A stretch of 13,549 nt of DNA from an uncultured Saprospiraceae bacterium (GTDB lineage: Bacteria; Bacteroidota; Bacteroidia; Chitinophagales; Saprospiraceae): NCBI GenBank assembly GCA_937942465.1, contig CALDEO010000114.1:1-13549 (forward strand), given 5' to 3'. Below the pieces are notes generated by a model that was not told the origin of the DNA, made no database searches, and worked only from the letters and a program-made list of their open reading frames with translations. The position numbers and the translations under genes were made by a program. This document shows positions 1-13,549 of the stretch, one piece after another (the first letter of the stretch is position 1; each line of letters starts with the position of its first letter).

Positions 1-2438
1 TCCGTTATAACCGGAGCATCACTACTACCTGCAATGACAACCACACCTGTAGATGTACAGTCATTATCATCAGTGATTGTATATGTGTATGTACCTGCAC
101 CTAAATCAGAAAGCGTATTACCTACACAATCATTAGGACTACATGACGGAGATCCAGTCCAAGTAACACTTAAGTCACCCGTACCTCCTGAAGTAGATAA
201 GATTACAGATCCACCTTCTGTACATGTTTCATTTGTTGATTCGGCTAAGCCTGTAATTTCATCCGGCTGTGTTATTGTTACAGTTTCTGATGCAGTTACT
301 CCATTAGCATCTGTTGCTACTAGCGTATGAACACCAGCTGCAGCTATCAAACTACAATTGGTAGATGCACCCGTATTATCCCAGTTACACATTATAGGAC
401 CTTGTCCAGTGACAGTAACATCTACTGACCCTAGACCACCAAAGCAATCAGGGTTAGTCGTACCATTGATGGTAATATCTGGTCCACATGTAGTGCTTGT
501 AGCAATCGTAACTGATCCGTTATCTATAATAACAGGCACCGACTCTGAAGCTGAGTTACCTACTTCAATGCTGACATTAGCATCACCTACTATCTCTACA
601 TTTGTAACTATAGCGTTATCTGCATCACATCCTATAACATCAAAACAAACGCAGAACATTACTTCTTCACTACCATTAAGTGAGTCATCTAGAGTCACAC
701 CACCTGTGCTAGAACTCCAACTCATTCTTAATTTGTTACCCTCTATGAAGTTAAAATTGGCACCATTAACACCCATCTCCGTATTTCTACATTGGATATT
801 GGGACTGATATAATCAAGTACACTCGCATCCCATACAATATTCAATTGTATAGAAGCTATATCTATAAAGTTAGTCGTAGAGAAATTAACACATACCTCA
901 TCTCCGGTTGTTCCAGTAGTCTCTTCTACGATAAACGTAATATCCGTAGGAGGAGGAGTACAACCTACAACCAACTCTCCACAATCAGTGAAAAATGGCA
1001 ATGTTGATCCCGTACTATTAGAAAATTCAATATCAAAGTTATTGAAACCCTCAAAAAGAATATCGGAGAACTCATCACAATCTCCTATTACATCAAAACA
1101 CAATTCGAATATGACCTCACCATCCGGTAAGTTAACAGGATTAACACCTGTATTATCAAACCATATAAATCTCAGTTGCCCATTATTCGCGTTAGCTGTA
1201 TTGAATGAGTTAACATTCAACCCTGTGAAATCAGGGTTATAGTTTTGTGTTCCTGTAAAGGTGAACACCGTCTCATCCCAAGTAATACCTGACTGAGCAC
1301 TCTGTATATCATTAAAGTTTTCAACACTTACTGGGATACATATATTTGATCCCATAGCTGCTGACATTTCTACTGTAAGTAGTCCTACTCCATCCATATC
1401 ACCTGTAGCGGCACAACCATCAGATGGTGGCGGCGGTCCATCATCCATGACTACTGCTATCTCACCACAATCGGTGTAGAAGTCCAGCGAGTTTTGATTA
1501 CTATCAGCAATCTCTACGTTAAATGGAGGCAATGATTGGAATATTATATCTGAAGACTCACCTATTGCGCCTATTAGCGTAAAGCATAATTCAAATATTA
1601 TAGAACCGTCTGCTAGTGTTGAAGGATTTGATCCTGTATTATCAAACCAGATAAACCTTAGTTCACCAGGCGTATTCATTGTGAATGAATTTGCATTTAA
1701 TCCCGTTAAATTATAATTCTGTGTACCCGTGAAATCTAAAACTGAAGTATCCCAAGTAATACCTGATTGTACGCTTTGTATATCCGTCCAGTTGTCTACT
1801 GTAACTTCAACGCAAATCATATCATTTGGATTACCAGATAACTCTTGCGCCAATAGTCCAACGTTGTTGGTATTACCTACTGGAGCACAACCTGATACCG
1901 GAGGTCCTGTTGTACAATCTGGGCCTTCTACGAAGATATTAGCTCCGTCTGTTATTGCTGTAAAAACATTTAAATCTACATCTGCAACTTCTCTTGTAAG
2001 AGGGTCATCAGATAAGACTAGGTTTACCTCAGAACAAGGTTCACCATCTCCATTCAGAGAGAATGAAAATAAAACGGTACCGTCTGGTATAGTGACACCG
2101 TTAGTTAAATCATCAACCGCATTGGCTGACCAAGAAATTCTTAATTGACCATCGTCCACACCTTGCGAACTAACTGGAGTACCAATATTAGAAACACCGA
2201 AATCAACTAGATCTGATGTTATATTAGTTACGTTATTGTATGACATCGCCAGTGAGTCCCAGTTAATAGAGAACTGTGCTGATATCAATCGATCGAAGTT
2301 ATTGACAGACACATCGATAGTGACTGTACCACCCGGAGCTACAGAAGAGGCAGCACTAAACTCAACCTCTAAATCCTGTGTCATGGCAGTGTTCGCCATA
2401 AATAATCCGAATACGAAAAGTATTAAAAACCTTTGCAT
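1..2438 (-). CDS. Multi-cohesin, SprB-repeat surface protein (3' end off the window)
   Basis: An uninterrupted minus-strand reading frame begins at the ATG at 2438 and runs off the left edge, giving 812 codons with no stop. Residues 1 to about 20 form a Sec signal peptide (MQRFLILFVFGLF, then polar residues before Q21). Four cohesin-like beta-sandwich modules follow, at roughly 22-165, 188-330, 346-488 and 496-650. Each has the pattern of a hydrophobic strand, an N-F/W-x-D/R-I segment, then Q-x-x-I-x-W-D and later a G-x-L-R-x-x-W stretch. Modules 2 and 3 are near duplicates, and each ends in a TDCGE motif. Residues about 653-728 match a SprB repeat (CFGG near 665, ending in TQPDEI), and a second one starts near 729. 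Such proteins in Bacteroidota are adhesins or matrix components; the missing C-terminus probably carries a T9SS sorting or gliding-type domain. Binding partner and exact function are not known. Confidence 0.88.
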   Translation of the reverse strand, partial: MQRFLILFVFGLFMANTAMTQDLEVEFSAASSVAPGGTVTIDVSVNNFDRLISAQFSINWDSLAMSYNNVTNITSDLVDFGVSNIGTPVSSQGVDDGQLRISWSANAVDDLTNGVTIPDGTVLFSFSLNGDGEPCSEVNLVLSDDPLTREVADVDLNVFTAITDGANIFVEGPDCTTGPPVSGCAPVGNTNNVGLLAQELSGNPNDMICVEVTVDNWTDIQSVQSGITWDTSVLDFTGTQNYNLTGLNANSFTMNTPGELRFIWFDNTGSNPSTLADGSIIFELCFTLIGAIGESSDIIFQSLPPFNVEIADSNQNSLDFYTDCGEIAVVMDDGPPPPSDGCAATGDMDGVGLLTVEMSAAMGSNICIPVSVENFNDIQSAQSGITWDETVFTFTGTQNYNPDFTGLNVNSFNTANANNGQLRFIWFDNTGVNPVNLPDGEVIFELCFDVIGDCDEFSDILFEGFNNFDIEFSNSTGSTLPFFTDCGELVVGCTPPPTDITFIVEETTGTTGDEVCVNFSTTNFIDIASIQLNIVWDASVLDYISPNIQCRNTEMGVNGANFNFIEGNKLRMSWSSSTGGVTLDDSLNGSEEVMFCVCFDVIGCDADNAIVTNVEIVGDANVSIEVGNSASESVPVIIDNGSVTIATSTTCGPDITINGTTNPDCFGGLGSVDVTVTGQGPIMCNWDNTGASTNCSLIAAAGVHTLVATDANGVTASETVTITQPDEITGLAESTNETCTEGGSVILSTSGGTGDLSVTWTGSPSCSPNDCVGNTLSDLGAGTYTYTITDDNDCTSTGVVVIAGSSDAPVIT
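975..1877 (-). repeat. Tandem duplicated cohesin-like modules 2 and 3
   Basis: Two adjacent modules of about 140 residues (approximately 1449-1877 and 975-1403) are highly similar. Both contain SGITWD, FTGTQNYN, TGLN, LRFIWFDNTG, IFELCF and a closing TDCGE. Module 3 carries a few extra residues (PDF before TGLN, and more in the following loop). The DNA has diverged at many synonymous sites, while stretches such as TCAGGTATTACTTGGGAT are still identical. This points to an older duplication kept under protein-level selection rather than a recent copy. Confidence 0.8.
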
Positions 2439-2788: not shown

Positions 2789-5700
2789 TTACTGAATAAC
2801 GATCATTTTCTTAGTCGCAGTGAAATCACCAGCTTCTAATCTGTAATACAATACTCCAGTAGCACCTTCTAGAAGTGTATTGTCGATTGTAATTACATTC
2901 TGACCTTTATTGTATGTGTTATTAATCGTAGTAATCTTTCTTCCTGCTACATCATAAATTGATAATTGCGCAATCATCGATTCTGGTAGAGTGAAAGAAA
3001 TCTGTGTATCTGTATCAAATGGGTTAGGAGTATTCTGTCCTAATGCAAATCCATTTGACATGTCTGTATTTCTCACCTCTAAGTTGAGGTTTAATACTTC
3101 TAAGTCGTTGTTGTATGCCTCAGTTTGTGTAAGTTCTGAAGACATTCCGTAAATTGTATTGGTTAATACGTTATTCGCTTTTGCTCTAAATGTTAATGTG
3201 TAAACTTCTTCATCTGAATCTAAAGATGTGCTTTTGTAATCACTCCAGCTCATAGATATCAATCCAAGATCTGCATTGTTAGCATTTACATTTTGAGCAG
3301 TGATGTTAAGTGCATCAGATGATACATTTACAAACTCTAGGCTTGTCTCATCAAATGATAAAGTGTATTGCATACCTACTATCTTATCGAAGTTGGCACT
3401 TGTGAATACTACCTCTACTAGTTCATCTTTTGTGTAAGACTGGTTGTCTATTACTAGACTCAAAGTTTTAGATGATCTATTACCTGATACATTACCAGAT
3501 TGAGCATTTGCTTCAGCATTTCCAGTAACATCACCTATTTTCACAGCTTTAAAGTCATTGTTTACGTCGTCGCTATTTAACTGAGCGATATCGATTTGAC
3601 TTTGTATTGGCCATGGGTTATTTGCATCTGCAAATCCTTGTGTCGCATCTACAAATCTCCAAGATTCGTTGTTAGGTAGCTCATCATAGATTCCTAAGAT
3701 TAACTTTCTAAGCTCGATAAGGTCAGTTGCACTTACATTTGCAGAGTTATTGATATCTGCTGCGATCACTTTGTAAGGTGAATCTAAGTCAGTGATACCT
3801 AAGATATGCTTCTGGATTAATACTAAATCCAATGTAGATACACCATTCATATGGTTATCGTTTCTACTTGCAGATACTTGATATACATGTCCAGCTGCAT
3901 TGTTGTTGAATGCATACAATCCATCAGACTGTGTCATCATCATTGTAGGTACATATGTAGACATGTTTTCCAACATTACTTCTACATTGTCAACATCAGC
4001 TCCTGTTTCTGTAGCTACTCTACCTGCAACCATTGGTTTTGGGCTTTCAGTACATCCACCAGTGTTCTGGATATCAATCATTGTTTCACAATAGTCTTGG
4101 TTACCTGCTAAATCTGTTACCCAGATTTGAACCATATTGATACCTAAATCATCACAAGTATAAGTCTTGCTCGTATTAGAAGTACTTGAACTGAATGAGA
4201 ATCTTAAAGAAGCATCCGGTGTACAGTTATCAAAACTACCTAAGTCAAAGTCGTTAGCCCAGATACCAATTGTTCCAGTTGAAGGCATAACTACAGTAGT
4301 AATACCACTTAAACAGTATGGTGTAGGATTCTTCGCATCTCTTACTATGAATAGTTGAGTACATTCAGTGATATTTCCACACTGATCTTCAGCAGTCCAT
4401 GTAATACTGTGAGTACCTACTGGGTACGTACCACTTGCATTTGATCCATTACCAGTGATATCTGCTCCAGTACCGTCATTGAATGCATCAATAACATAAC
4501 TGTATACAATCTGATCAGCTGGAGTACAATCATCTGTTGCAACTGTGATAAATTCAATATCTCCTTCACATTCATCATCAAAAGTTGAGAATGATACTGT
4601 AGAACAAGATGCAAATACTGGACCTACACTGTTGTTGATCTTAATGATCTGAGTGTATTGTCTGATACCGTCACCGTTTGGTTGGTTTTGGTTATAAGTA
4701 CACCAGTCGATTACTGTCCAAGTTCTTAAGATTTTGAAACAAGCATCTTCAACAAAGTTGAATGTCTGGTCACTATATGTATATGCTAACTGACTACAGT
4801 TAGTATTTCCTGTGTAGCTAGGTACTCCAGGACCTGTTGGATTCTCAGGATCAGTATCTACCATCATACATCCAGTGAATGTCTTATCGGCAGGGAAAGA
4901 TACTTGAGTATTCAAGTTAAATGGTACTGAATTAGTAATTGAGATTGTTTGATTACATGATCTCAATGTTGCAAGTGTAACAGTGTTATAAGCTCTAAAG
5001 CTTCTTGTGATAGAGTATATTCCACATGTATTAGCAGTAGTAGATGTCTCACCTAAGTATTCTACTGCAACTTTACCACAGTTATCATTAGATATTGTGA
5101 ATACGTCAGCAACATTAGGTACTGCAGGTATCGCATCTGCACAATCGATTGACTGATTGTCTGTAGCTGTTGTACAAGTTATAACAGGTGTTACTTTATT
5201 ATCAACTCTTACATTGACCATACAAGTATTAGCATTTCCTGTTGCATCCCATACTACTAGTTCTACCATTACATCTTCAACGTCAACGTCGTTACAACAG
5301 AACTTTACAAAATCATAGTATCTAGTTCCACCGAAAGTAAATACTTCTGTAGGGTTACTTCCTGCTGTTGCTCCTGTAAACTGTCCACATGTATCTGACA
5401 TTCTTCTAACACCATAAGATATTGTAGAACTACAGTTATCATGACTACCGTCATCAAAAGTCAAAGCAAATGCATGAGCCCAACCACTTGTATTTAATGT
5501 AATTACAGTGTTCTGATCACATACTGGAGTAGGAGGCGTATTATCTACTACTTTAATATCTTTAGTACATGTAGTAATGTTACCACAAGCATCTTTTACT
5601 TCAAAGTATATCCATATACAACCTGCAGGTAATCCTGTGATTGTAAATGTTCCTGTTGATGCAAATCCATCTGCATCAAGGTCTGCTGCATTTCCATCAT

Positions 5701-7342
5701 AAGAAACACCATCAGATTTGTAATTGAATGCACTAGATGCGTTCGTGTTATTACAAACTCCATCAGCTGGAATTGATGCTTCTGACCACTTAATTCTGTA
5801 AGTAACTTCACTACAATCGAACTTAATTACATCATTTAAAGGCTCACTGTCAATATTCGGAAATGGTACAGTAAAGTCTGCAGTACATGTGTAAGGATTT
5901 ACATCAATATCAAAGTATGACTCACCACACTGGATACTTGGTCCTTCTGTATCTGCAATTTTAATTATTTGTGTATGCGTTGTTGATGTTGCTTCACACC
6001 AATCTAACGCTATCCAATTACGTAATAACTTGAAACTAACACCACATACGTCGATCATATCGTCGTTGTACGTAAGGTTAATCTCACAAAAACCGTTATT
6101 AGGGTGGATAACTTCGCCTCCGATAGTCGGTCTACCAGTATCATCAGGGCTAGTGCTTGTAGAAACACTACACTCAACTGAGTAATTTGCTGGCCATACT
6201 ATATCAGAAAGCGTTTTTCTTTCATAATAAATATTCTTAGTACAAATATTAGATAGATTACCACTAGCATCAGATGCTTGACAAGTAATTGTTCTAATAG
6301 CAGAGATACCAGGATTAGCAGCATCATCACAATCAATATCTACAGTATTATCTGTAAGAGTAGTAAATGTAATGGTGTTACAATTGTCAGCTGCTGTCAA
6401 CTGAGAGTTGAAAAATCCTCTTGTATTAAAATTAACTTGCCCACCAGTAAATCTAAACTGGATATTATCAGCACCTAAGTTATCAGTAATACATACTCTC
6501 CAATCTCCTTCAAAAATAGCATCTGTAGCCTGAACACCCAAATACGCTGCATTTGTGATATTAAGGTTCATACCATTAGTAGAAGTAAAACTGTTAACTA
6601 AAGCACCAGCAGGACTGTAAATGTCAATGCTGTACATGTTAAGAACAGTTTGTGGAGTTAAGTTTAAATCAAATTCAATTGTATTAACAATATCAAATTG
6701 GTTTAAACCATTCACTGTAATGTCTGCACAGATAGTACCACCATCTGTTGCTTGTTGAGCAGTCACAGAAGCTCCTGGATCAACGTCATAAGGTACATCC
6801 GTACCATTCAATACTAGACCACTTTCTTGGTCATAAGAGAATGAAGATGATACTGCACCATGTGTAAAGTCAGAAGAAACGATCGACTCGTTACAACCAA
6901 CTGTAATGTCAGTAGGACAAGAAAGCACTGGTGCCAACTTATCTTCAACACTAATAAAACCCCAACAAGAGTTTAATCCTCCACTAGCCGTAGTATCATT
7001 AATTCTGACTGTTAAAGTCTGACCAATGTGAGCTACTCCTACTGAAGGATGCGTAATAACTCCACCTACGGTGGCAGTTGTGATAGTAGAACCATCAGCC
7101 ATTTCGATAGTTACTGTGTAGTCATCATTAGTACAAGTTCCCATCCCCTCTAAGACTACGTCGGGACTGATAACTGCTGAGCAGGTACCATCTAAAGAAA
7201 TTTGTACGCTGTTGTTACAACCTAAGGGGCATTGTGCATGCAGGCTTAGTGTAAATGTCGCCAAGAAGGCGGTAAGGACTCCTAATCTTGCTAAAGCAAA
7301 ACTAAAGTTCTTCGTTAAGTTAGTAATTTTCTCCAATTTCAT
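2789..7342 (-). CDS. T9SS-sorted HYR/dockerin/cohesin-like surface protein
   Basis: This is a 1517-residue secreted protein. Residues 1-37 form a signal peptide ending in LSLHAQ. Residues about 38-1100 are cysteine-rich HYR-like beta modules, with recurring D-x-CGN-x-T-x-C-T and PTPxC motifs (near 131, 379, 584 and 984). The stretch at about 165-310 resembles a proprotein-convertase P-domain (a YSIDIYSPAG segment and a later GDWRVCITDN); this is tentative. A carboxypeptidase-regulatory-like segment (about 1100-1155) leads into a dockerin-like module (1161-1276). A cohesin-like module follows (about 1295-1425), then a type A T9SS sorting domain (1430-1517) that begins with NTPNPF and ends in KKMIVIQ. 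The protein should cross the outer membrane by T9SS and be anchored or released after the sorting domain is removed. A structural, adhesive or assembly role is more likely than catalysis, since no catalytic motif is visible. It has its own terminator. Confidence 0.93.
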   Translation of the reverse strand: MKLEKITNLTKNFSFALARLGVLTAFLATFTLSLHAQCPLGCNNSVQISLDGTCSAVISPDVVLEGMGTCTNDDYTVTIEMADGSTITTATVGGVITHPSVGVAHIGQTLTVRINDTTASGGLNSCWGFISVEDKLAPVLSCPTDITVGCNESIVSSDFTHGAVSSSFSYDQESGLVLNGTDVPYDVDPGASVTAQQATDGGTICADITVNGLNQFDIVNTIEFDLNLTPQTVLNMYSIDIYSPAGALVNSFTSTNGMNLNITNAAYLGVQATDAIFEGDWRVCITDNLGADNIQFRFTGGQVNFNTRGFFNSQLTAADNCNTITFTTLTDNTVDIDCDDAANPGISAIRTITCQASDASGNLSNICTKNIYYERKTLSDIVWPANYSVECSVSTSTSPDDTGRPTIGGEVIHPNNGFCEINLTYNDDMIDVCGVSFKLLRNWIALDWCEATSTTHTQIIKIADTEGPSIQCGESYFDIDVNPYTCTADFTVPFPNIDSEPLNDVIKFDCSEVTYRIKWSEASIPADGVCNNTNASSAFNYKSDGVSYDGNAADLDADGFASTGTFTITGLPAGCIWIYFEVKDACGNITTCTKDIKVVDNTPPTPVCDQNTVITLNTSGWAHAFALTFDDGSHDNCSSTISYGVRRMSDTCGQFTGATAGSNPTEVFTFGGTRYYDFVKFCCNDVDVEDVMVELVVWDATGNANTCMVNVRVDNKVTPVITCTTATDNQSIDCADAIPAVPNVADVFTISNDNCGKVAVEYLGETSTTANTCGIYSITRSFRAYNTVTLATLRSCNQTISITNSVPFNLNTQVSFPADKTFTGCMMVDTDPENPTGPGVPSYTGNTNCSQLAYTYSDQTFNFVEDACFKILRTWTVIDWCTYNQNQPNGDGIRQYTQIIKINNSVGPVFASCSTVSFSTFDDECEGDIEFITVATDDCTPADQIVYSYVIDAFNDGTGADITGNGSNASGTYPVGTHSITWTAEDQCGNITECTQLFIVRDAKNPTPYCLSGITTVVMPSTGTIGIWANDFDLGSFDNCTPDASLRFSFSSSTSNTSKTYTCDDLGINMVQIWVTDLAGNQDYCETMIDIQNTGGCTESPKPMVAGRVATETGADVDNVEVMLENMSTYVPTMMMTQSDGLYAFNNNAAGHVYQVSASRNDNHMNGVSTLDLVLIQKHILGITDLDSPYKVIAADINNSANVSATDLIELRKLILGIYDELPNNESWRFVDATQGFADANNPWPIQSQIDIAQLNSDDVNNDFKAVKIGDVTGNAEANAQSGNVSGNRSSKTLSLVIDNQSYTKDELVEVVFTSANFDKIVGMQYTLSFDETSLEFVNVSSDALNITAQNVNANNADLGLISMSWSDYKSTSLDSDEEVYTLTFRAKANNVLTNTIYGMSSELTQTEAYNNDLEVLNLNLEVRNTDMSNGFALGQNTPNPFDTDTQISFTLPESMIAQLSIYDVAGRKITTINNTYNKGQNVITIDNTLLEGATGVLYYRLEAGDFTATKKMIVIQ
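3515..3862 (-). other. Dockerin-like module within the surface protein
   Basis: Residues 1161-1276 hold two EF-hand-like segments. The second is close to a dockerin calcium loop, with D1196, N1198, S1200 and D1207 at positions 1, 3, 5 and 12, followed by LIELRKLILG. The first (N1161, N1163, M1165, D1172, then LVLIQKHILG) is degenerate at position 5. A conserved tail, FKAVKIGDVTGNA, ends the module. From memory this arrangement, with NGVST-D-LVLI and A-A-D-x-N-x-S motifs, is frequent in Bacteroidota T9SS proteins. Whether such modules bind cohesins is not established from sequence. Confidence 0.75.
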
Positions 7343-7480: not shown

Positions 7481-8155
7481 TCAGACCAATTGATATTCCA
7501 ATGCAAATTTGATTAAGTTGACTGTATTGCGAACACCTAATTTGCGCATTATATTTTTTCGGTGAACACCAACAGTCTGGTCACTAATGTATAGCTCTTT
7601 AGCTATTTCTTTGTTATTTTTCGCTTGTGTTATCAGCTGTAAAATTTCCTGCTCTCGGCGAGTCAATTTCTGTCTAATGACAAATCTATCTTCATAAAAG
7701 CTTCTATTTGCAACCTCTTTATTCATTCCATTTTTCTTGTTCTCGGGTGTAATCCGTAATCCCTTGGCAAGAAATGTATGTCCCTTCATGACTTCTGTAA
7801 TACCTTGTACTAGTTCAATCGTACTATTAGATTTTACAACATAGCCGTCAGCTCCAGACTGAAATGCTTCTTTCACAAACTTCGTATCACCGTAACTAGT
7901 AAGAATAATTATTTTGAGATTTTCAAAACGTGCTCTCAAGCCGGGTAAAATTGCAAGACCATCTTGATCAGGAAGACTGAGTTCAATAAGCAGTAAATCT
8001 GCTTCTTCGTCTTCTATCACTTGACTTAATCCTTCAGCTTTTTCAAGCTCCCCTACAAACTTTAAAGTAGGAGTTTTTACCTTTTCCATAAACGCCTTAA
8101 GACCTTCAACAAACATTCTTTGATTATCGACAATGACGGTCTTTATAGCTTTCAT
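7481..8155 (-). CDS. NarL/LuxR-type response regulator with Glu at the phosphoacceptor site
   Basis: This 224-residue protein has the standard two-domain layout. A receiver domain occupies about residues 4-124 and a LuxR-type helix-turn-helix about 164-220 (LTRREQEIL, then NNKEIAKELYIS and VGVHRKNIMRKL). It should bind DNA as a transcription regulator in the cytoplasm. The receiver keeps D10, T86 and K108. However, the expected Asp before S-x-P is Glu (E58 in LIELSLPDQDG), and the second residue of the acidic pair is Asn (N11). Phosphotransfer by a histidine kinase is therefore unlikely by the normal route; Glu can imitate a phosphorylated Asp, so it may be constitutively active or controlled in another way. 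No sensor kinase gene is in the window. It lies 138 bases upstream of the large surface-protein gene and 117 bases past the asparaginase gene, with which it might share transcripts. Confidence 0.93.
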   Translation of the reverse strand: MKAIKTVIVDNQRMFVEGLKAFMEKVKTPTLKFVGELEKAEGLSQVIEDEEADLLLIELSLPDQDGLAILPGLRARFENLKIIILTSYGDTKFVKEAFQSGADGYVVKSNSTIELVQGITEVMKGHTFLAKGLRITPENKKNGMNKEVANRSFYEDRFVIRQKLTRREQEILQLITQAKNNKEIAKELYISDQTVGVHRKNIMRKLGVRNTVNLIKFALEYQLV

Positions 8156-8272: not shown

Positions 8273-9265
8273 TTATTTAGAGTAATATGAAAGTGCTTCT
8301 AATACAGAGTTTTGAGTAGAATCTGTTATTGTATAAATAAAACCAGGAAAAATACTGTAAGCCCCGAATTTACCTGATTTAGAACATGCAATGAAGCCTA
8401 CCTGCATATCTTTAGTGTCATAACGTTCCACGATCCTAATGACAGCTAGGCGACATGCCTCCTGCGGATTATGTCCTTGACGCATGAGCTCTACAACTAG
8501 AAATGACCCCAATGTTTTCATCACTAACTCTCCGACGCCAGTTGCTGTAGCAGCACCGATTTCGTTATCAACATATAGTCCTGCACCGATTATAGGACTA
8601 TCACCTACCCTTCCTTCTAGCTTATAAGCCATGCCGCTAGTGCTACATCCTCCAGAGATATTGTTATTATCGTCCATAGCTATCATACCGACGGTATCAT
8701 GGTTTTCTATATTGATTTCTGGTTGATATTGACTTGATTTAACCCATTTTTCCCATTCTTTCTTAGATGATGGTGTCAGTAAGTCTATATGTTCAAACCC
8801 CTTCTCTCTAGCAAACTTATAGGCTCCCTCTCCACTAAGCATGACATGTGGAGTTTCTTCCATTACATGACGTGCCACTTCAATAGGGTTCTTTATATTT
8901 TTTAAAAACGATACACTACCGGCATCCCCCTCTGCATTCATTATACATGCATCTAAGGTTACATTACCTGCTCTGTCTGGTCTACCCCCGTATCCTACTG
9001 ATGCATCATCAGGATTGTTCTCTACGTTCTTAATACCAGCTACGATGGCATCTAGTGAAGTCTTAGACTGATCTACCATAGTATTAAGAGCTATTGTATT
9101 ATCTACCTCGTGGTACCAGGTAGATAACACAAAAGGAGCCTTTAAACTAGTCAAAGGCTCCTTTTTAATATTTTCTGTTTTACAAGAATTTAGTATTGTC
9201 GAGGCATAACCTAGACCTAGTATCTGTAAAAATGATCTTCTCTTGAATAAGGACTTTCTAGACAT
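8273..9265 (-). CDS. Tat-exported lipoprotein glycosylasparaginase (N-terminal nucleophile amidase)
   Basis: This 330-residue protein belongs to the asparaginase-2/glycosylasparaginase family, which in characterised members cleaves the GlcNAc-Asn bond of glycoasparagines. The family matures by self-cleavage before a threonine. Here the HDTVG motif puts the cut between D190 and T191, making T191 the nucleophile. Other visible family signatures are CSTSG (207-211), RVGDSP (219-224, with R219 and D222 as likely substrate contacts) and TGVGE (242-246). The length is normal for the family. The N-terminus has a twin-arginine motif (KRRSFLQ, R9 and R10), a hydrophobic stretch and a lipobox LNSC (C28), so it should be exported folded by Tat and lipid-anchored. 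The peroxidase gene ends 70 bases upstream on the same strand. The exact substrate (glycoasparagine, isoaspartyl peptide or asparagine) is not settled by sequence, though similarity to the flavobacterial enzyme favours glycoasparagine. Confidence 0.93.
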   Translation of the reverse strand: MSRKSLFKRRSFLQILGLGYASTILNSCKTENIKKEPLTSLKAPFVLSTWYHEVDNTIALNTMVDQSKTSLDAIVAGIKNVENNPDDASVGYGGRPDRAGNVTLDACIMNAEGDAGSVSFLKNIKNPIEVARHVMEETPHVMLSGEGAYKFAREKGFEHIDLLTPSSKKEWEKWVKSSQYQPEINIENHDTVGMIAMDDNNNISGGCSTSGMAYKLEGRVGDSPIIGAGLYVDNEIGAATATGVGELVMKTLGSFLVVELMRQGHNPQEACRLAVIRIVERYDTKDMQVGFIACSKSGKFGAYSIFPGFIYTITDSTQNSVLEALSYYSK

Positions 9266-9335: not shown

Positions 9336-11237
9336 TTAGTTTTCTTTGACAATCCTCAACACATTTCTAGCTGATGGAGTTTCCATAAACAGATTGTACA
9401 TACCTCTAGGCATCTCCTCTGGTATAGAATAAGAAGTAAAGTTATCACCTGGGTCTAATACCATCGTGCTCGTAGAGATTAACTCTCCAAGTACACCGTA
9501 AAGACTGAAAGTAACAACCTCTTGAATATCAGCAAAAATTTTGATGTGAAACTTACTTTTAGTAGGGTTAGGGTACGCTACAGCGTCCAATTGAACATCA
9601 GCAAGATCTGGACCTGTAGGAATAGCGCTGTGTGGCATTGCTACAAACACATTTTCTTGCATTAAGTCTATTGTAGTATTTCTCATGATGATATCATGGA
9701 AACTTGTATTCGCAATATCGTCCATCTGGTGCTCCTCAAATTGATCACCATGCTGGTAGTAATAACTATCACCATCTCTTAACAATTGAAATTGTCTTTC
9801 AATGATTCTTAAAGCTAACTCACCAAATAAAGCATCAGGGTTGTGTCTTTCAGCTAACATTCCTACCCATGGGTCTATATTATCTACATCACCATATAAA
9901 CTCTCAAGCTGTGCAGCAGCATCTTGCGATCCTGTCAAGCTAAAGAAATTATTCATCGGAGGCATACCAAAATCATCTCTGATCGTATTATAATCTGCAA
10001 TACCTCTTTCTCTACCTCTCTTTACATTGATAGCAGCATAATCTTTACCAATCATAGCTACATCATCAATGACATAGTTACGCATTGCATCCACTACCTT
10101 ACAATCCAAATTTTGTTGAATCTGAGAAGCCATACCTTTAAAATAAGGCTCTACTCCACCTGCATGGTTTATTTCAATTGGTTTGAAATATGCATCACGA
10201 TAAGATATGTCTCCGTTAGGAATCATTCTTCCACTGTTATCCATTCTTACTATAGTACCGCTGTTAAGAGTCAATCCTATATTAAAGGTTGCAGCAGAGA
10301 ATACATTCATTATAGAAGGATTCATATCTGTTTTATACCCTGTATAATCAGGCAACCATATACCCATAGCAGGCAACCACTCATCAAATACAACTGACTG
10401 GTAGTATGCAATCAAATGCTTTCTAGCATTCTGATACAATTTTTCATCATTACCTAACCAGCTTGGATGCTTCTCCAAATAATGGTCACATAATCTATTA
10501 TGCTCTCTTACAAATAATGTATGAATAGCTATTAGTAGAGGATTTTCATTGGCTCGTACATCACCAGCAACAAAAAGTCTTTGATTATTCAACTTATCTA
10601 TCATTGAAGGTATCGCAGTAGATAGGTCTGTATCATTAAACTCACCTGATGGTGTATTCCAAGGAAGTAAATTTCCTTGACTAGTTTTTAACTTTCCAGA
10701 ACCATCACTTGCTCTTAACCACTTTGATCGCGCTTCGTCACATCCATACACACTAGATAAATCTAGATACGATGTAACTGAGTTTCGATATTGTCTTGGA
10801 TTATTTATATCTGTACCTGTACCTTCGATCTTTTGAGACCTCAGCATGAAAATATCAGAATTAGGGGCAAAAACCTCATCATCTTCTGGTACAGTAATAC
10901 TCAAATATTCATTCTCACTATCTTCAACAAAAACAATATCATGCTCTATAAACTGACCAAAGACCCATACAAAATCGCTTAGATTAAGTGGATCCATTAT
11001 CATATCAGTTTGAGAGAATAAAGTATTACTTATAACTCGCTCATTTGGTCGATTCCAACCACTTGGCTCTGATATACTATCTGAAAAAGATGAAGTTGTG
11101 TACTGGTTGAGGGGAGCACTGATACTACCCCAATCAAGCGGGTGGTTACCTGTGCCGTCTAACGATCTGTATTCTTGACAATAACTTGTTGTCAAAAACA
11201 GAATACTTAATAACAATGATGTCGATACTCTACGCAT
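9336..11237 (-). CDS. Secreted animal-type haem peroxidase homologue lacking the proximal His, with T9SS sorting domain
   Basis: This 633-residue protein starts with a signal peptide (residues 1-20, cleavage likely before Q21) and ends with a type A T9SS sorting domain (about 550-633, starting at YPNPTKSKF). Between them is an animal haem peroxidase (peroxinectin/cyclooxygenase superfamily) domain. Visible family motifs are FGQFIEHD (Q95, E98, distal H99), the calcium loop TSYLDLS (T155, Y157, D159, S161, with D100), RANE (R228, E231), HTLFVREHNRL (238-248) and INVKRGR (N404). The proximal motif, normally F-R-x-G-H, reads F318-N-I-G-L322, so both the haem-ligand His and the nearby Arg are missing. 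E98 replaces the Asp that normally binds haem covalently. Family members oxidise halides or organic substrates with peroxide; normal peroxidase activity is doubtful here. It may be a haem-free binding protein or use another ligand. The frame is intact, arguing against a decaying pseudogene. Confidence 0.9.
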   Translation of the reverse strand: MRRVSTSLLLSILFLTTSYCQEYRSLDGTGNHPLDWGSISAPLNQYTTSSFSDSISEPSGWNRPNERVISNTLFSQTDMIMDPLNLSDFVWVFGQFIEHDIVFVEDSENEYLSITVPEDDEVFAPNSDIFMLRSQKIEGTGTDINNPRQYRNSVTSYLDLSSVYGCDEARSKWLRASDGSGKLKTSQGNLLPWNTPSGEFNDTDLSTAIPSMIDKLNNQRLFVAGDVRANENPLLIAIHTLFVREHNRLCDHYLEKHPSWLGNDEKLYQNARKHLIAYYQSVVFDEWLPAMGIWLPDYTGYKTDMNPSIMNVFSAATFNIGLTLNSGTIVRMDNSGRMIPNGDISYRDAYFKPIEINHAGGVEPYFKGMASQIQQNLDCKVVDAMRNYVIDDVAMIGKDYAAINVKRGRERGIADYNTIRDDFGMPPMNNFFSLTGSQDAAAQLESLYGDVDNIDPWVGMLAERHNPDALFGELALRIIERQFQLLRDGDSYYYQHGDQFEEHQMDDIANTSFHDIIMRNTTIDLMQENVFVAMPHSAIPTGPDLADVQLDAVAYPNPTKSKFHIKIFADIQEVVTFSLYGVLGELISTSTMVLDPGDNFTSYSIPEEMPRGMYNLFMETPSARNVLRIVKEN

Positions 11238-11680: not shown

Positions 11681-13549
11681 ATGTTCGAATATCTAAATCA
11701 TAAGATTACTTTTTCTTTAGCTATTGTGTTTACAATGCTGATTATAAGCACCGAGCTTCAAGGTCAAAACTCGCAATACCAGCACCTACGTACTATTATT
11801 TTTAATGATTCTGTTATCGATTTGACTGATAGTCTCACCATAATACCAGAATCAATCATTGCAACACTTAGTGACTCAGCTACTACTAATATCAAGCATC
11901 AATTGATACTAAATAAGATATTGATCTCCCCTCAGAATCAATTATCTGCTGGAGATACAATCAACATCACATATCGGACATTGTCTGCCGACTTGTACGC
12001 TACCCGATCCCATATAGATCAGAACCAACTAAAATCTAAGGATAGAGCGATCTACATTGGATACGAGTATTCGCCATTTGACACTGAGAATAAGAATGCG
12101 CTAATACAATCAAAAGGACTAGACTATGACGGGAGTTTTTCTAGAGGATTTTCATTTGGTAATGGGCAATCCCTCCTTCTCAATAGTAACTTCAACCTAC
12201 AACTGGCTGGAGACCTGGGTAATGATATCACTATCAAAGCAGCAATATCGGATGATAACATACCGATCCAACCAGAAGGCAATACCCAGGTATTACAAGA
12301 GTTTGATAAAGTATTTATACAAGTAGACAAAGGAAAAACAAGGCTGATTGCTGGAGATTTTCAAGAACAGGAAACAGATAGCTACTTCTTAAGATATTTA
12401 AAGAAACTCAAAGGACTCAAAGCGGCACATACTGTAGACCTCTCCGAAAAGAGCTACGTCAGAACTGGAGGGAGCTTTGCCCAATCCCAAGGGAAATTTA
12501 GCCGTCAGGAAATAAGTACTTCTGAAGGAAACCAAGGACCATATCGATTAAGTGGTAACAATGGCGAGTTATTCCTGATTGTGAGATCTGGTACAGAAAG
12601 AATATACTACGACGGTCGATTGCTGAAACGAGGGATTGATCTAGACTACATTATAAGTTATGATCGTGCTGAGATAACATTCACACCAAAAACCTTAATC
12701 ACTAAAGATAGTAGAATCGTAGTAGAGTTTGAATACATAGATCGAAGCTATCAAAGGACCAGCTATATTGCAGAAGCTACTTACGTAAATGGAAAATTTA
12801 GCTTTGATACCAATCTATACACAGAGAGCGACAGTAAGAACCTTCAACAGGATATACAACTAGATAGTACTGATATAAGTATACTGACAGAAGCCGGAGA
12901 TGACTTAAGTGATGCGATCAGACCAAGTATCAACCTTTACGACGGCGATGCAGATCCTGACCTCATACTTTACAAACAAATAGTAGAATCAACTGGTAAT
13001 ATATACTATGAGTACTCCACTAGTCCTGACAGTGCTAACTATCTGGTATCCTACTCAAATGTAGGAGCCAATAATGGTAGCTACATCATCGACACCGAAT
13101 CCACAGCTAATGGACGTGTATATAAATACGTAGGAGAAAACTTGGGTTCATTTGAGCCAATCAAAAGGTTAGTAGCTCCTCAGAAAAAACAAATAATGAC
13201 ATTTGCTAGTCAATACAAAGCGACTGAGCAACGAATAATTAAAGCCGAGCTAGCAGTAAGTCAGACCGACCTCAATCGATTTTCGGAAGTTGACAATGAA
13301 GACAATACTGGCAATGCCCTATCTATCTTATATGATGATCTGATCAAGCTAGATACAGTACCCAACGGATGGTCAATAGCACCTCAACTCAGTTATGAAT
13401 ATGTCAATAAAAACTTCTTGACAATCAATCCTTATCGATCACCAGAGTTTTCTAGAGATTGGAATCAAATTCAATCTAATGACACATTAATTAACAATCA
13501 ACAAATCATAACTGCCGGTCTAAAGCTCCAAAAAGCAAAATCATTTAAA
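11681..13549 (+). CDS. Large conserved envelope protein, predicted outer-membrane beta-barrel (3' end off the window)
   Basis: An open frame of 623 codons starts at the ATG at 11681, the first ATG after an in-frame TAA at 11618, and runs off the right edge with no stop. Residues 1 to about 28 form a signal peptide (K8, hydrophobic core 9-23, then ELQGQ). Conserved-looking motifs include SRGFSFGNGQ (154-163) and PIQPEGNTQ (195-203). The latter is followed by EFDKVFIQVDKG and LIAGDFQ (207-228). Downstream, alternating polar and hydrophobic residues suggest amphipathic beta strands. From memory, very long proteins with the same motifs occur across Bacteroidota as uncharacterised envelope proteins; I recognise no enzyme motif and do not assign a function. 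The gene is divergent from the peroxidase gene, so shared regulation in the intergenic region is possible. A beta-barrel is an inference from composition and strand pattern only. Confidence 0.85.
   Translation, partial: MFEYLNHKITFSLAIVFTMLIISTELQGQNSQYQHLRTIIFNDSVIDLTDSLTIIPESIIATLSDSATTNIKHQLILNKILISPQNQLSAGDTINITYRTLSADLYATRSHIDQNQLKSKDRAIYIGYEYSPFDTENKNALIQSKGLDYDGSFSRGFSFGNGQSLLLNSNFNLQLAGDLGNDITIKAAISDDNIPIQPEGNTQVLQEFDKVFIQVDKGKTRLIAGDFQEQETDSYFLRYLKKLKGLKAAHTVDLSEKSYVRTGGSFAQSQGKFSRQEISTSEGNQGPYRLSGNNGELFLIVRSGTERIYYDGRLLKRGIDLDYIISYDRAEITFTPKTLITKDSRIVVEFEYIDRSYQRTSYIAEATYVNGKFSFDTNLYTESDSKNLQQDIQLDSTDISILTEAGDDLSDAIRPSINLYDGDADPDLILYKQIVESTGNIYYEYSTSPDSANYLVSYSNVGANNGSYIIDTESTANGRVYKYVGENLGSFEPIKRLVAPQKKQIMTFASQYKATEQRIIKAELAVSQTDLNRFSEVDNEDNTGNALSILYDDLIKLDTVPNGWSIAPQLSYEYVNKNFLTINPYRSPEFSRDWNQIQSNDTLINNQQIITAGLKLQKAKSFK

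Follow-up and report, generated by a model that had tools for sequence, protein, structure and literature searches.

Inactive or haem-less peroxidase domains are already known in animals. The peroxidase domain of the dual oxidases (DUOX) carries no haem in the structures covered by the relevant passages of PMC8956913, which also describe cation sites in the domain and the failure of cation-site mutants to assemble. The passages of PMC4420034 on DUOX describe the domain as being without the proximal histidine and call its function obscure. Human PXDNL (peroxidasin-like protein), of the same superfamily, is enzymatically inactive and has Glu811 in place of the haem-linking Asp826 of PXDN, as given in part of PMC8533639. 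CyanoPOX, a bacterial lactoperoxidase (8s6c), is active with non-covalently bound haem b, and in the sections of PMC11776367 on its haem site the proximal residues are His294, Leu372, Asn376 and Arg291. DdPoxA, which also lacks the aspartate that forms a haem ester, is still active according to passages of PMC5787809, so this aspartate is not strictly required for an active haem peroxidase. No description of bacterial pseudo-peroxidases matching PF03098 was found by title or abstract in the literature searched, which covered few subscription journals. Earlier notice of such sequences is possible, since part of PMC4420034 mentions dead-end clades in the superfamily in which essential residues were lost.

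Here we describe a bacterial protein, encoded in a 13,549-nucleotide stretch of DNA (the window), for which the DUOX peroxidase homology domain is the nearest precedent; in our best reading, by analogy, it would be the bacterial counterpart of that domain. DUOX1 and DUOX2 are membrane NADPH oxidases with further domains, whereas the window protein stands alone, is bacterial, ends in a sorting-like tail and does not have the dual oxidase architecture of transmembrane, EF-hand and NADPH oxidase domains. The distal histidine is kept in the window protein; the distal residues of DUOX lay outside the comparison. The change in PXDNL to Glu811 is of the same kind as E98 of the window protein, but PXDNL is a multidomain animal protein and has Trp808 for Gln823 of PXDN, whereas the window protein keeps Gln95 (an equivalence taken from the Gln-x-x-Asp spacing and not from an alignment).

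The gene and its haem pocket

The putative pseudo-peroxidase gene (9336..11237, minus strand) has an intact frame of 633 codons for amino acids. An animal haem peroxidase domain (PF03098; residues 23-531; 9645..11171, minus strand) matched over the full length of the profile (1-530 of 530, E 6.1e-126, 421.5 bits against a cut-off of 25), which places the protein in the fold of the peroxidase-cyclooxygenase superfamily. Its own genome, which is 65% complete, gave no other match to PF03098. The rest of the domain content of the 633 residues was a weak PF18962 match, corresponding to a type IX secretion system (T9SS) sorting-like C-terminal domain (residues 555-622; 9372..9575, minus strand). This domain scored 20.9 bits for PF18962 and 20.2 bits for TIGR04183, below the Pfam cut-off of 27 and the NCBIfam cut-off of 23, respectively. 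The predicted model of the protein has beta-strands within residues 551-631, a protein database assigns PF18962 to the window's own protein (P0001), and five of the seven other altered proteins scanned passed the PF18962 cut-off. The protein is probably secreted.

At the position of the F-R-x-G-H motif of haem peroxidases the window protein reads F318-N319-I320-G321-L322 (10272..10286, minus strand), as the preliminary description had proposed. The assignment was confirmed by a phmmer alignment to CyanoPOX, in which a gap-free block sets N319 and L322 opposite R291 and H294. No other histidine aligns at or near the proximal site, and none occurs in residues 308-331; misregister and an alternative histidine ligand are therefore ruled out. 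The proximal axial histidine of haem peroxidases is missing, as it is in DUOX. The arginine that forms a salt bridge with a haem propionate (Arg291 in CyanoPOX) is replaced by N319, and a second such arginine, Arg379, is kept as R407. Of the four proximal residues of CyanoPOX, three are replaced (L322 for His294, N319 for Arg291, Y400 for Leu372) and Asn376 is retained as N404. The codons are AAT for N319 (10281-10283) and TTG for L322 (10272-10274); orthologues from two genomes of the same genus (G001, G002) read FRLGH, with codons AGA and CAT. It had been argued that TTG is more than one base away from a histidine codon, and all three bases do differ from CAT, but by itself the argument is weak because CAT to CTT is a single step after which a synonymous change is possible. 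In the predicted model the helix at 311-324 runs on without a break, and in a control model of the relative P0004 it stops at residue 316 of that protein (window 317), a difference that carries little weight.

To place these changes we used an alignment of 358 proteins (226 from three protein searches, 132 from genomic loci), in which proteins were classed as altered if they departed at positions 95, 99, 228, 319 or 322. R319 and H322 each occur in all 345 unaltered proteins, partly by construction. Other residues of the pocket are also replaced. E98 (10944..10946, minus strand) stands for the aspartate that esterifies haem in mammalian relatives (Asp80 of CyanoPOX in the haem-site sections of PMC11776367), a position that is D in 343 of the 345 unaltered proteins; with Glu231 kept, one partner of the Asp and Glu ester pair is thus changed. 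At near-invariant columns, Y346 (10200..10202, minus strand) replaces a leucine at a position that is aromatic in none of the 345 unaltered proteins, V389-I390 (10068..10073, minus strand) replace Leu-Phe, and Y400 (10038..10040, minus strand) replaces the proximal leucine. A reading of RERG for RDHG as a further oddity was dropped, RERG being common among unaltered relatives.

Much of the remaining site is kept. The distal Gln, His and Arg are all present as Q95, H99 (10941..10943, minus strand; His81 in the same sections of PMC11776367) and R228, the last within R228-A-N-E231 (10545..10556, minus strand), which holds the distal arginine and the second ester glutamate. The remaining two members of the proximal triad, as named in part of PMC5787809, are retained in N404 to R407 (10017..10028, minus strand). 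The calcium-site loop T155-S-Y-L-D159-L-S161 (10755..10775, minus strand) is kept together with D100, so that the ligands D100, T155, D159 and S161, as named in part of PMC11776367, are all present in the sequence; the cation sites of DUOX were not in this alignment. The preliminary description had listed the distal histidine, the RANE motif, the calcium loop, the sorting domain and an intact frame as retained; all of this stood except that the sorting domain, while present, falls below curated cut-offs. Retention of H99, R228, N404 and R407 would fit a protein that binds haem loosely, or distally through H99, without turnover, as a haem store or scavenger might. We consider this decidedly unlikely: the near-invariant hydrophobic residues L346, L389, F390 and L400 are all changed, and no Pfam match to a haem-uptake family was found in the five other window ORFs scanned, one of which had no match of any kind.

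A pocket state shared with the closest relative

In the first protein search (the best 120 of 5,002 proteins found, from 7,996 candidates scored), 118 of the listed proteins have H322 and the other two are the window's own protein and P0002. P0002 is 84% identical to the window protein and has the same N319, L322 and E98, so that the closest homologues do not all carry F-R-x-G-H. Neither of the two findings named beforehand as refuting the preliminary description, another histidine at the site or F-R-x-G-H throughout the clade, was thus made. A local sequencing or assembly error might be suspected, the assembly of the window genome being fragmented and 65% complete, yet the same residues on a separate contig in a protein of 84% identity virtually rule such an error out. 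A scan of genome contigs for relatives gave one relative only, and the clade comprises two proteins so far. The next relatives, with 65-69% identity to the window protein, differ from it in having FRLGH and D98: these are the same-genus orthologues (G001 and G002, loci L004 and L003), P0003 (69%) and P0004 (65%). At 346, 389, 390 and 400, all four of them changed in the window protein, P0003 and P0004 still have the usual Leu, Leu, Phe and Leu.

In the tree, the window protein groups with P0002 (support 1.0) on a stem of 0.217 substitutions per site, and P0003 is the sister of this clade (support 0.989). We examined 103 near-invariant columns, each at least 98% conserved in 117 homologues and lying before residue 540. 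The window protein and P0002 share an identical set of 11 departures, compared with none in P0003 and one in P0004. Besides R319N and H322L, the set comprises D98E, A317T, L346Y, D384A, L389V, F390I, L400Y, I405V and R491S, a rebuilding of the whole pocket that the preliminary description had not noticed. The two proteins differ at 16% of columns overall and at none of the 103 near-invariant columns (16.2 expected if differences were spread evenly, P 2e-8), and 142 control pairs of unaltered relatives with 80-88% identity had a mean of 0.10 differences at such columns. The absence of any difference argues that the new pocket state is under selection, and the history it implies is a rapid run of changes along the stem, after which these columns were as constrained as they are in unaltered relatives. 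A separate relative, P0009, departs at 14 of 130 columns that are 95% conserved and keeps all ligands.

Recent functional decay of a dispensable enzyme was weighed against this pattern. The window lineage has evolved moderately faster than its sister (0.306 substitutions per site since their common ancestor, compared with 0.195 for the sister), and its distal site is still intact, as might be seen early in decay. The frame is intact, however, and a stem of 0.217 followed by no near-invariant difference over 16% divergence is hard to reconcile with decay, which we regard as very improbable. Partial relaxation on the window lineage is possible. General relaxation as the sole cause was rejected, since a relative-rate comparison of the window lineage with P0003 (outgroup P0004; wider background of 345 proteins, 84 near-invariant columns) gave counts of 9:0 at near-invariant columns and 64:41 elsewhere. 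Comparison with the same-genus orthologues (pS 0.75 and 0.77, pN 0.24) was uninformative as to dN/dS because synonymous sites are saturated.

The window gene lies in a conserved neighbourhood. On the minus strand it is followed by an asparaginase_2 or beta-aspartyl-peptidase-like gene (8273..9265, PF01112), which adjoins the peroxidase gene in four of nine loci compared (L032/G034, G001, G002, G347) and had no match in the stretches taken from G194, G105 and G390, and by a LuxR-type response regulator (7481..8155, PF00072 and PF00196), present in seven of the nine. A divergent gene truncated by the window end (11681..13549, plus strand; no Pfam or NCBIfam match) adjoins the peroxidase gene in eight of the nine loci, and its conserved position suggests a conserved partner of the peroxidase gene. 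In the stretches taken, G137 matched the divergent gene only and G323 matched none of the neighbours. Two large cohesin-domain ORFs also lie beside the peroxidase gene (2789-7342 and 3-2438, minus strand); the 1517-amino-acid ORF additionally carries a sorting tail and matches dockerin weakly, and matches to one or other of the two were found in seven of the nine loci. The order of divergent gene, peroxidase, asparaginase-like gene, response regulator and large cohesin-type protein is the same in the window, G001, G002, G034 (L032) and G347. These neighbours, held in common with FRLGH orthologues, argue that the window gene is the in-place orthologue of ligand-keeping genes. Eight of nine genomes have one PF03098 copy and G390 has two, the second of which (L154) has all ligands; G194 (100% complete) and G323 (97%) have an altered copy only.

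Altered relatives and recurrent pocket columns

H322 is kept in 348 of the 358 aligned proteins and is missing in three of the 132 loci and two of the best 120 proteins from the first search. These are not unbiased rates: two of the three protein searches used altered queries and so enriched for altered proteins, and the loci, nearly all from genomes of the same family, are the top of match lists and probably include one contig twice (L008, L032). The replacements of H322 are Leu (window protein, P0002), Tyr (L088, P0121), Ala (L087 and P0188, the same Portibacter lacus protein), Ser (P0127, P0130), Glu (L121) and Pro (P0165). Of these ten proteins P0121 alone still has R319; the other nine have Asn (three), Asp (two) or Lys (four) in its place. 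In P0128 and P0131, R319 is changed and H322 kept. P0011 (649 amino acids) keeps both (MRLNH) and shows mainly distal loss (Q95E, H99S, E231R), with further changes at D98 and G321 and N404S.

Altogether, ligand or pocket residues were lost in about six to eight lineages among the 358 aligned relatives. The count is given as a range because L088/P0121, P0127-P0130 and P0131 may share one loss; three separate losses are uncertain here, the separating node having a support of 0.41, and all three groups are changed at 94 and 351 while two share R420S. Like the window protein, the other altered relatives (L087/P0188, L088/P0121, L121, P0127/P0128/P0130, P0131, P0165 and P0011) have lost ligand or pocket residues and still match the family and keep the calcium-site residues; they differ from it in their replacements, and several also lose distal residues. 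None of the 13 altered proteins has lost T/S155, D159 or S161, and each has D or E at 100. In L087 (229-2172) the proximal histidine is replaced by Ala, the arginine by Asp, Q95 by Leu and E231 by Lys; this is the only PF03098 match in a P. lacus genome listed as 100% complete, and Portibacter marinus (P0183, L070) keeps the ligands.

We asked how often the same columns were changed, with the five picking columns (95, 99, 228, 319, 322) excluded. Counting six lineages, six columns were changed in at least three (0.76 expected, none of 20,000 shuffles) and four columns in at least four (0.05 expected, none of 20,000 shuffles). Counting eight lineages in a shuffle weighted by variability, seven columns were changed in at least four (2.1 expected, 1 of 5,000) and six in at least five (0.44 expected, 0 of 5,000); the nine columns changed in at least three were unremarkable (7.0 expected, 946 of 5,000). 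A five-lineage test in which the picking columns were retained was not relied on. The recurrent columns are 389, 390, 346, 400, 98 and 351, the contribution of L121 at 389-390 being a deletion. Position 346 is aromatic in the window protein, P0002, L087/P0188, L121 and P0131. Position 400 is aromatic in the window protein, P0002, L088 and L121 and in one of 345 unaltered proteins. Position 389 is charged in eight of 13 altered proteins from four groups (L088, P0121, L087, P0188, P0127, P0128, P0130, P0165) and in none of the unaltered ones, and 351 is Tyr in L088, P0121, L087/P0188, L121, P0127, P0128, P0130 and P0131 and in one of 345 unaltered proteins. From this pattern of convergence, and not from coordinates, we infer that 346, 351, 389 and 390 touch the haem. 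P0126, classed as unaltered, keeps its ligands and has Y351, H389 and I400; it is perhaps an intermediate.

The two new tyrosines raise the question of whether haem might be bound through a new ligand, with Tyr400 or Tyr346 acting as a tyrosinate and the distal Gln-His-Arg site kept. A tyrosinate ligand is catalase-like. The distal triad and E231 are intact, both tyrosines are fixed at near-invariant columns in the window protein and P0002, and position 400 corresponds to Leu372 on the proximal haem side of CyanoPOX (part of PMC11776367). In a separate lineage, L088 (277-2187 in G323) and P0121 (21 member sequences), Tyr is found at 322 itself, in a proximal segment reading F-N/R-I-G-Y with the distal site intact and, in P0121, the propionate arginine also kept; on its sequence, this lineage is a direct candidate for Tyr-ligated haem in the superfamily. 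However, position 400 in the other altered proteins is Phe, Ile or Val, none of them able to act as an iron ligand, or is still Leu; at 346 they have mostly non-Tyr residues (Leu, Val, Phe, Met, Ile, Thr), with Tyr again only in L087/P0188. Packing fits these residues better, and the loss of the propionate arginine also speaks against tyrosinate ligation. We therefore regard tyrosinate ligation in the window protein as unlikely. That the proximal side has been rebuilt for Tyr-ligated haem (Y400 or Y346, and Y322 in L088/P0121) while the distal machinery was kept also seems quite unlikely; if true, one member of a superfamily described as having His for its proximal ligand would be ligated through tyrosinate instead.

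A fold probably kept without haem

The reading we favour, and consider probable, is that the window protein is a haem-free, calcium-stabilised, secreted pseudo-peroxidase. A haem-free fold with a structural or binding role is suggested because the axial histidine, the propionate arginine and near-invariant hydrophobic residues have been lost while the calcium site is kept, and because aromatic and charged residues recur at the same columns in other members of the family. Loss of the same pocket in relatives suggests that the protein has been kept for a job other than peroxidation. The gene would descend, without having moved on the chromosome, from one for an ordinary haem peroxidase, and a single branch would have seen the replacement of the axial histidine, propionate arginine, ester aspartate and several near-invariant side chains of the pocket. 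The space left empty is probably taken up in part by the bulkier tyrosines at 346 and 400, and the domain would still fold around its calcium site. With the C-terminal sorting domain mediating its export and anchoring, the protein might then serve as a surface scaffold or binding module without H2O2-driven oxidation of substrates. A scaffold or adhesion role would have an analogy in the peroxinectins, for which part of PMC4420034 gives an adhesion function.

Some observations count against a haem-free protein. Distal Q95, H99, R228 and E231, together with N404 and R407, are kept in both members of the clade, and a wholly haem-free protein need not keep them. Lys, found in four of the nine proteins above with R319 changed, could still bind a propionate, and the faster evolution of the window lineage counts against a clean story. 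Stem lengths bear on the first point. The lineages with shorter stems (window 0.22, L088/P0121 0.28) keep the distal triad, and distal residues are lost in four with longer stems (P0011 0.63, L121 0.67, P0127-P0130 0.45, L087 0.46) and not in two (P0165 0.49, P0131 0.54). This pattern roughly fits distal constraint that fades after haem loss, two of the six longer lineages being misfits, and it makes the intact distal site a weaker objection to the haem-free reading. The preliminary description had left a choice between a conserved secreted pseudo-peroxidase and an unusual haem-binding mode, as opposed to simple decay. Conservation within the clade, in two members, supports that statement, and the evidence leans to a pseudo-peroxidase because the propionate arginine, ester aspartate and hydrophobic residues disappeared jointly and the same positions are hit in other lineages.

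The window protein is a bacterial relative of the human antibacterial peroxidases. Because it and all seven other altered proteins scanned each score above 400 bits for PF03098 against a cut-off of 25, a match to this family is not readable as a peroxidase without a check of the pocket. The P. lacus protein, found in a named species as the sole PF03098 match of a genome listed as complete, may make one such case testable. Losses of the haem pocket recur within one bacterial order, affect the same positions and often bring in similar residues; they amount to a natural replicate experiment on the fold without haem.
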